Assembly: GCA_902810695.1 (NCBI GenBank)
Contig: CADDYV010000022.1
Location: forward strand, 1 to 52,194
Length of the DNA stretch: 52,194 bases
Reading direction: 5' to 3'
From: Actinomycetota bacterium
Lineage (GTDB): Bacteria > Actinomycetota > Rubrobacteria > Rubrobacterales > Rubrobacteraceae
In this document: positions 25,177 through 51,207 of the stretch, piece by piece
How the letters are laid out: the number at the start of each line of letters is the position of its first letter
Numbering within the stretch: position 1 is the stretch's first letter
Program-made: the position numbers and the translations under genes
The notes under the pieces: generated by a model
Told to the model about the DNA's origin: nothing
What the model saw: only the letters and a program-made list of their open reading frames with translations
The model's database searches: none

Positions 25177-25245
25177 CGCCTTGAGTGTAACTTAAATGGG
25201 AGCGGGGTAGGAACATTGGTGCAAGCTACTGTCAGGAGGCAACAG

Positions 25246-25482
25246 ATGGCCGAGCATGAGGTAATCGTCTACCATCAGCCCGGTTGAGGCGCCTGCCGCC
25301 AGGAGATGGAGTTTCTATCTCAGAGAGGTATCGAGTTCACGGAGAAAAACATCCGCACCGACCTCGAGGCGATGCAGGAGATGGTGAAGATGAACTCTCA
25401 AGCCACCCCCACCACCGTCATAGACGGTGAGGTCATAATCGGGTTCGATCGGGAAAGAATCAGCGAGAAGCTAGGTCTCTAG
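25246..25482 (+). CDS. Glutaredoxin-like (NrdH/Grx) protein with TGA at the first redox cysteine: candidate selenoprotein
   Basis: Read through TGA 25285-25287, the frame gives a 78-residue thioredoxin-fold protein, the normal NrdH/glutaredoxin size. N-terminal MAEHEVIVYHQPG leads into UGAC, where glutaredoxins have CxxC, so the TGA (one base from TGC) stands exactly at the nucleophilic Cys14; Cys17 is kept. The later motifs are intact: RGIEFTEKNIR, the cis-Pro region ATPTTVIDG and the tail VIIGFDRERI. AGGAGG lies 6 nt before ATG 25246. No other stop or frameshift occurs, which argues against a decayed gene. An 8-bp hairpin with loop GUU starts 15 nt after the TGA. Selenocysteine would give a UxxC redox site; reading needs SelB and tRNA-Sec encoded elsewhere. 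Confidence 0.82.
25303..25321 (+). promoter_or_regulatory. SECIS-like hairpin after the TGA of the glutaredoxin-like gene
   Basis: GAGATGGA pairs with TCTATCTC (8 bp, one G-U pair) around the 3-nt loop GTT. The loop begins 23 nt after the TGA. This matches the general bacterial SECIS form: a hairpin inside the coding region, a small apical loop with G first and U second, about 16-37 nt from UGA. A bulged U like that of E. coli fdhF is not obvious. Confidence 0.6.
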
Positions 25483-49923: not shown

Positions 49924-51024
49924 TTATTTCGAAGTATTCGAGGAACAAACGTTGCCGTGCCAGCCGCAACCGCCATCCTGACCAGTAGCGACGATGTTCT
50001 CCCCGTGCAAGATGTTGTTCACGACGGTGGCGTCGTGCTGCGTCCCGCGTGAAGGATCACCCGAAGCGTGCAGCTCGATGCCGTCATTGCTCCCGTCGTG
50101 CATACTCCGGCCCGACATGCTCCGGCCCAGTACGTTGTAACGGACCGTCCCGTGCGCCGAGTCGGAGACAGAGATACCGCTATAGGCGTTGCCGTAGACT
50201 CGGTTGTGTTCTATGAGCGCCTTGACGTTATCACCAGGGTTCAAATCCGGCTTCGGAGAGTTCTCGTAGAAGATCCCGTGGCGGCTGTTGCCATAAGCTA
50301 CGGTGCTATGAACCCAGAAGCCGTGGGTGCGCGCCGCCTCGGACTGGCAGCCTACATCACACCACGCACCATTGCCGCCGTTGTTGTGCGTTACGACACG
50401 GTTGACCTCACAGGCGTAGTTGCACTTGATCCCTGCTGCTGTGCCCCCTACCTTGGAAGCGTCCCGGCCGTTGTGGGCAAGCTCGCTGTCCAAGAGTACG
50501 CCCTGCGCCTGCCCTATGCCGGAGCCTGCCGCTCCGTGAACGTACAGATGATCCATGTGCAAGCCGGAACCCGCGGCGATGGCAGTGATGCCCTGGTTGA
50601 CTCCCTTGGCGTCGAGTTCGAGCCAGGAGATGCGGATACGTTGCCCTCTGGCCTCGGGCCGGATCAGGGCGTTCTGGTTCGCGCCGGAGGCAAGGACCAC
50701 CCGGACTACGGGGTGCGGCTTGATCGCTGGTCCAACCTTCGTGCTCGTGCCAGAATCGCCCACGAGCGACTGGTTTCTCTCCAGCTTGATCTTGTTGTCT
50801 ATTACGTACGTCGTAGGGTTCTGGGGAGTAGCCTTCGGAGAGGCGTGCACCAGGATGGTGTCTCCCGGTCCCGCGGCGTTGGCTTTAGCGTCCAGATCGT
50901 CTCCTGGATTGACGTTGATGGTTGCAGCGGAAGCTACCCCTGCCATCACAGTGCTGGCCAGCACCAAAATTAAAGCCATACCTGGAAGTACGGCGAGTAC
51001 AGTGAACGTAACGAACTTCTTCAC
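49924..51024 (-). CDS. Secreted right-handed parallel beta-helix protein
   Basis: A 366-residue exported protein. GTG 51024 has GAGAGGGGG upstream. A Sec signal peptide (MKKFVTFTVLAVLPGMALIL, cleavage near GVASAA) is followed by GDDLDAKANAAGPGDTILV and NQSLVGDSG, the usual cap and first rungs. About 15 short repeats follow, such as GIFYEN and YGNAYSGISVSD, typical of pectate-lyase-like beta helices. Cys pairs (CNYAC, CDVGC and CGWHGNVC) suggest disulfides. It may bind or cleave polysaccharide; catalytic residues are not evident. It sits in a lower-GC island next to an integrase remnant. Confidence 0.8.
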   Translation of the reverse strand: MKKFVTFTVLAVLPGMALILVLASTVMAGVASAATINVNPGDDLDAKANAAGPGDTILVHASPKATPQNPTTYVIDNKIKLERNQSLVGDSGTSTKVGPAIKPHPVVRVVLASGANQNALIRPEARGQRIRISWLELDAKGVNQGITAIAAGSGLHMDHLYVHGAAGSGIGQAQGVLLDSELAHNGRDASKVGGTAAGIKCNYACEVNRVVTHNNGGNGAWCDVGCQSEAARTHGFWVHSTVAYGNSRHGIFYENSPKPDLNPGDNVKALIEHNRVYGNAYSGISVSDSAHGTVRYNVLGRSMSGRSMHDGSNDGIELHASGDPSRGTQHDATVVNNILHGENIVATGQDGGCGWHGNVCSSNTSK

Positions 51025-51099
51025 GCGTATTACCCCCTCTCTTCGGCAACCGGCTACCTCGCGCTGGAGGCCCCTGGTTTTGCGTCCCCGCCTCACGAC

Positions 51100-51207
51100 G
51101 GGTTTGCCCTTTCGGTTCCAATTAAGTTATCGGCACAAAGGAGGGGAAACTATAGCGTTCTCGAGAAAAATTTGTAAAAATAGTTTTTGATCGGTTAGGG
51201 CAAACCC
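51100..51207. repeat. 11-bp inverted repeat flanking the promoter of the beta-helix gene
   Basis: GGGTTTGCCCT (51100-51110) and AGGGCAAACCC (51197-51207) are exact complements 86 bp apart. The enclosed AT-rich DNA holds the presumed promoter of the beta-helix gene. The arms could be ends of a small mobile or regulatory element. Confidence 0.4.

Follow-up and report, generated by a model that had tools for sequence, protein, structure and literature searches.

Glutaredoxins that carry selenocysteine (Sec) have been known from bacteria since 2005, when they were described from the Sargasso Sea (PMC1088965). A survey published in 2006 lists three of them, its table of selenoprotein-rich organisms naming a glutaredoxin in Geobacter, Alkaliphilus and Moorella, while its sole mention of Rubrobacter xylanophilus (five selenoproteins) concerns SelD (PMC1794560). 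The family as delineated in these two studies is marked by a UxxC motif, a bacterial SECIS (bSECIS) hairpin and widespread homologues with cysteine (PMC1088965, PMC1794560). A characterised native selenoprotein of this kind is cGrx1 of Clostridium (Alkaliphilus) oremlandii, with the active site U(C)PxC (PDB 7c10, 7c12; PMC7642778), for which a passage in PMC13188914 also cites Kim et al. 2011. For the hairpin, a bSECIS model is available that comprises a loop of 3-9 nt with a G in its first two positions, a stem of 4-16 bp, a spacing of 16-37 nt and a minimum free energy (MFE) of at most -7.5 kcal/mol (PMC13188914).

Here we describe a gene of the Rubrobacteraceae (Actinomycetota) that shares the UxxC motif, the hairpin and the Cys homologues with the described family; that it joins the Sec-glutaredoxins of other bacteria is well supported. 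Our literature search, whose coverage was incomplete, returned no report of a Sec-glutaredoxin in the Rubrobacteraceae. The window, i.e. the whole stretch of 52,194 nucleotides analysed, belongs to a 3.59-Mb draft genome of 148 contigs that is 98% complete, and the features on which the following account draws are these:

25234-25239, forward strand: Shine-Dalgarno sequence AGGAGG, 6 nt upstream of the ATG, as read from the sequence
25246-25482, forward strand: gene of a predicted UxxC selenoglutaredoxin of 78 residues, in which UGA stands for Sec and TAG is the stop (PF00462 match, TGA orthologues in the family, dN/dS)
25285-25287, forward strand: UGA of predicted Sec14, where CxxC glutaredoxins have their nucleophilic Cys (the codon is TGA throughout the Sec orthologues and TGT or TGC in Cys forms)
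25294-25296, forward strand: codon of the resolving Cys17 of the UxxC motif, invariant in the orthologue alignment
25303-25321, forward strand: SECIS hairpin GAGATGGA-GTT-TCTATCTC, with the stem 25303-25310 / 25314-25321 and the apical loop GUU at 25311-25313 (folding, relatives, bSECIS model)
25408-25410, forward strand: codon of Pro55 in the TPTTV motif, predicted to be cis and invariant in the orthologue alignment

The reading frame comprises 79 codons including the stop and is interrupted solely by the TGA at codon 14, just as the initial annotation had it when it placed a single TGA at the first Cys of a glutaredoxin; the ribosome-binding site that it gave upstream of the ATG is likewise present, and purine-rich sites of this kind also precede the genes of the relatives. 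Pro55 we take to be the cis-Pro from knowledge of the glutaredoxin fold. Scans for promoters and terminators around the gene found none. Among its neighbours, only a divergent plsY (in eight other genomes) and corA (in two) recur beside the orthologues, and these give no functional hint; the downstream cupin and quinone-oxidoreductase genes are not recurrent there. Elsewhere in the window, a c-di-GMP-I-GGC riboswitch aptamer lies at 51041-51117 on the reverse strand (RF03167, 63.4 bits at a cut-off of 59), and the frame at 49924-51096 (reverse strand), which overlaps and then follows this aptamer, appears to encode a secreted protein of parallel beta-helix-like type.

When translated through the TGA, the product matches the Pfam model Glutaredoxin (PF00462) at 43.5 bits (cut-off 22.9). 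The best match in NCBIfam, TIGR02196 (GlrX_YruB), scores 67.8 bits and stays below its cut-off of 88.55, and the name of this model is silent on Sec; the second-best, NF041212 (Uxx_star family glutaredoxin-like (seleno)protein), attains 53.3 bits (E 2.4e-14) without reaching its curated cut-off of 66. Structure prediction with AlphaFold (pLDDT 91) assigns to the 78 residues, with high confidence, a glutaredoxin fold with elements in the order beta-alpha-beta-alpha-beta-beta-alpha, in which residue 14 would lie immediately N-terminal to helix 1. Among solved structures, cGrx1 is the nearest in sequence (PDB match, 69 bits) and also among the best by fold, being second (TM 0.91, 50% identity) to the thioredoxin-like BC3987 (3zit) in a structure comparison of the model. 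The two proteins differ in their source, cGrx1 coming from Clostridium, and in the active site, which is U-P-x-C in cGrx1 and U-G-A-C in the window protein.

Close orthologues whose one TGA falls on this same codon occur in 14 of the 39 genomes of the family, including the present one, and a further one is held by a metagenome-assembled genome of Chloroflexi (L056). SelB was found in 13 of the 14 genomes with the TGA orthologue, the exception being an assembly that is 75% complete. An intact Cys form is present in three genomes, with TGT in G026 and G027 and TGC in G014, and all three retain SelA and SelB. Downstream of the TGA, comparison of the window gene with its Sec relatives yields dN/dS values of 0.09-0.36, so that the protein beyond the apparent stop is evidently maintained by purifying selection, which bears out the earlier argument that the absence of other damage speaks against decay. 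The homologues have either Cys or this one TGA at position 14 and are otherwise undisrupted, save for one frameshifted Cys copy in two genomes. This copy was found in G015 (L035 1426-1680), where it has a 2-base frameshift and is in its DNA nearly identical to the intact copy of G014 (L032), and in G025 (C4:193819-194051), where the same split match lies beside that genome's own TGA copy; it looks like a shared broken copy, and was perhaps transferred. In the tree, the inner branches are for the most part too weak to show which way, or how often, Sec and Cys were exchanged. A search of viral contigs found no relatives.

About ten genomes of the family hold further TGA-bearing glutaredoxins, which form a second group at a greater distance (L033, L034, L036 and L037; G012:C256, G028:C1:3912007, G035:C18 and G036:C14). 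Its members share about 40-50% identity with the window protein, have the active site QP(G/D)-U-LFC or VPC, and possess a hairpin of different sequence in a similar place. TGA-bearing glutaredoxins (UPxC) with hairpins of their own are likewise found in other families of the phylum (L081, L083, L086, L087).

The initial annotation had made its reading depend on selA, selB, selC and selD, all four of which are present in the genome. The tRNA-Sec (64.7 bits) has a UCA anticodon and forms one cluster with selB (SelB, 354 bits) and selA. SelD (341 bits) is encoded elsewhere (L046 1294-2436, reverse strand) and has an in-frame TGA of its own near the N-terminus, in the context AG-U-ASK; moreover, two formate-dehydrogenase-like genes (L089, L090) contain one in-frame TGA each together with a fitting hairpin.

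The hairpin of the glutaredoxin gene has eight pairs, including one G-U, and its loop begins 23 nt after the TGA. It agrees with every constraint of the bSECIS model (3-nt loop GUU, G first, 8 bp, 23 nt, and an MFE of -7.6 kcal/mol for the bare hairpin); the MFE falls to -9.0 kcal/mol with three flanking bases on each side and to -14.6 kcal/mol for 46 nt. Its geometry, a 3-nt loop with G first, matches that of selD (8 bp, loop GGA, 20 nt after the TGA) and of both formate-dehydrogenase-like genes (stems of 7 and 8 bp, both with the loop GUC 19 nt after the TGA). Taken alone, the hairpin of this single sequence is weak evidence and within the range of chance: a stem of 8 bp or more lies in the matching range after 27 of the 1075 TGA trinucleotides of the window (about 2.5%), a stem of that length arises in 8% of synonymous recodings, and the z-score of the 46-nt fold is -0.95. 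Since these statistics are not significant, the hairpin alone was not used as an argument, and its significance derives from its conservation jointly with the TGA in the relatives.

The hairpin is indeed conserved with the UGA. Among the Sec forms 98.2% of the hairpin cells are paired, as against 25-73% in slid-partner controls, scores that are inflated by the relatedness of the sequences. Covariation support is thin, consisting of one double change from U-A to C-G in two sequences, a count that 129 of 500 shuffles reach as well. For both reasons more weight was given to the choice of codons within the stem. Leu24 is encoded by CTA in 10 of the 13 Sec forms, with CTG and a matching change in two, and Ser25 by TCT in 12 of the 13, although CTA makes up 2% of the Leu codons and TCT 9% of the Ser codons in a reference set of nine genes from this genome. 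The three Cys forms, by contrast, have CTC with TCC or TCG and are without a clean stem. Rare codons that are kept in the Sec forms and absent, along with the clean stem, from the Cys forms indicate that a constraint at the RNA level travels with the TGA. Thus, of the SECIS-like 8-bp hairpin put forward in the initial annotation, the position, the GUU loop and the distance of 23 nt are confirmed, while its force as a single observation was overstated, and it is the relatives that restore the argument.

These data leave little room for other explanations of the TGA. The gene might be a pseudogene or truncated gene in which TGC or TGT mutated to a stop, since TGA is one base away from a Cys codon and the standard reading ends after 13 residues; but the same TGA recurs in the 14 family genomes and the Chloroflexi genome, in copies without further stops or frameshifts, and the selection acting downstream of it, the Sec machinery of the genome and the rare hairpin codons kept only where TGA is present render this explanation very improbable. 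That the codon is in truth TGC or TGT, misread in sequencing or assembly, might be suspected of a draft assembly, yet the TGA recurs across separate assemblies, among them several that are nearly complete (G009, G010 and G028, with 2-4 contigs), and its presence in 14 assemblies of the family excludes such an error in practice.

Two further explanations accept the TGA and deny it to Sec. Suppression or a reassigned code, by which UGA would be read as an ordinary amino acid, is possible in principle, and the frame is open across the codon. Against this, TGA serves as the normal stop in 4 of the 10 neighbouring genes, so the code is not reassigned; the genome has a dedicated tRNA-Sec(UCA) and SelB, the hairpin is conserved, and the UGA sits at the position of the catalytic Cys, which makes this reading even less credible than a pseudogene. 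Translation could also restart downstream, as the window has ATG at codon 21, and give a short protein. Its product would be devoid of strand 1 and of the active site, residue 21 of the relatives is variously M, V, T or K, and the alignment shows conservation of the codons ahead of the TGA as well, so that the probability of a restart appears negligible.

We therefore consider it nearly certain that the gene encodes a thiol-disulfide oxidoreductase of the glutaredoxin fold with a UxxC motif and Sec at residue 14; the selenoglutaredoxin proposed in the initial annotation is strongly supported by the TGA orthologues, the machinery, the conserved hairpin and the purifying selection. We infer the incorporation of Sec as well as the chemistry, partner and reductant of the enzyme, and the steps outlined here follow what is established about SelB-dependent decoding and glutaredoxin chemistry. 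SelB carrying Sec-tRNA-Sec would bind the hairpin downstream of the UGA, and Sec would be inserted during translation. The selenolate of Sec14 may then attack a disulfide or an oxidised (seleno)thiol of the partner, and Cys17 would resolve the mixed species. For cGrx1 the proposed partner is MsrA, which in C. oremlandii is a selenoprotein; the present genome has one match to MsrA, with no TGA in the matched stretch. A selenoprotein MsrA as partner, by analogy with C. oremlandii, is hence unsupported here, although a Cys-containing MsrA could still be the substrate.

Ordinary annotation would truncate the gene to 13 codons, and current NCBI family models match it below their cut-offs; the selenoproteins of the Rubrobacteraceae are, in the literature searched, little described. 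The Sec and Cys orthologues, whose genomes retain SelA and SelB, provide a compact test of when a catalytic Sec gives way to Cys and of how tightly the SECIS hairpin tracks the change. More tentatively, and with somewhat more doubt than conviction, we suggest that the Rubrobacteraceae may possess, across the lineage, two Sec-glutaredoxin groups that form a hitherto undescribed pair, one with QPG-U-xxC and its paralogue with QP(G/D)-U-LFC/VPC, in the first of which a switch between Sec and Cys, with the Sec machinery kept, would track the presence or absence of the hairpin, and whose partner would be other than the known selenoprotein MsrA. If this is true, the Sec/Cys switch of the first group would offer a natural experiment on the selective forces that favour Sec.
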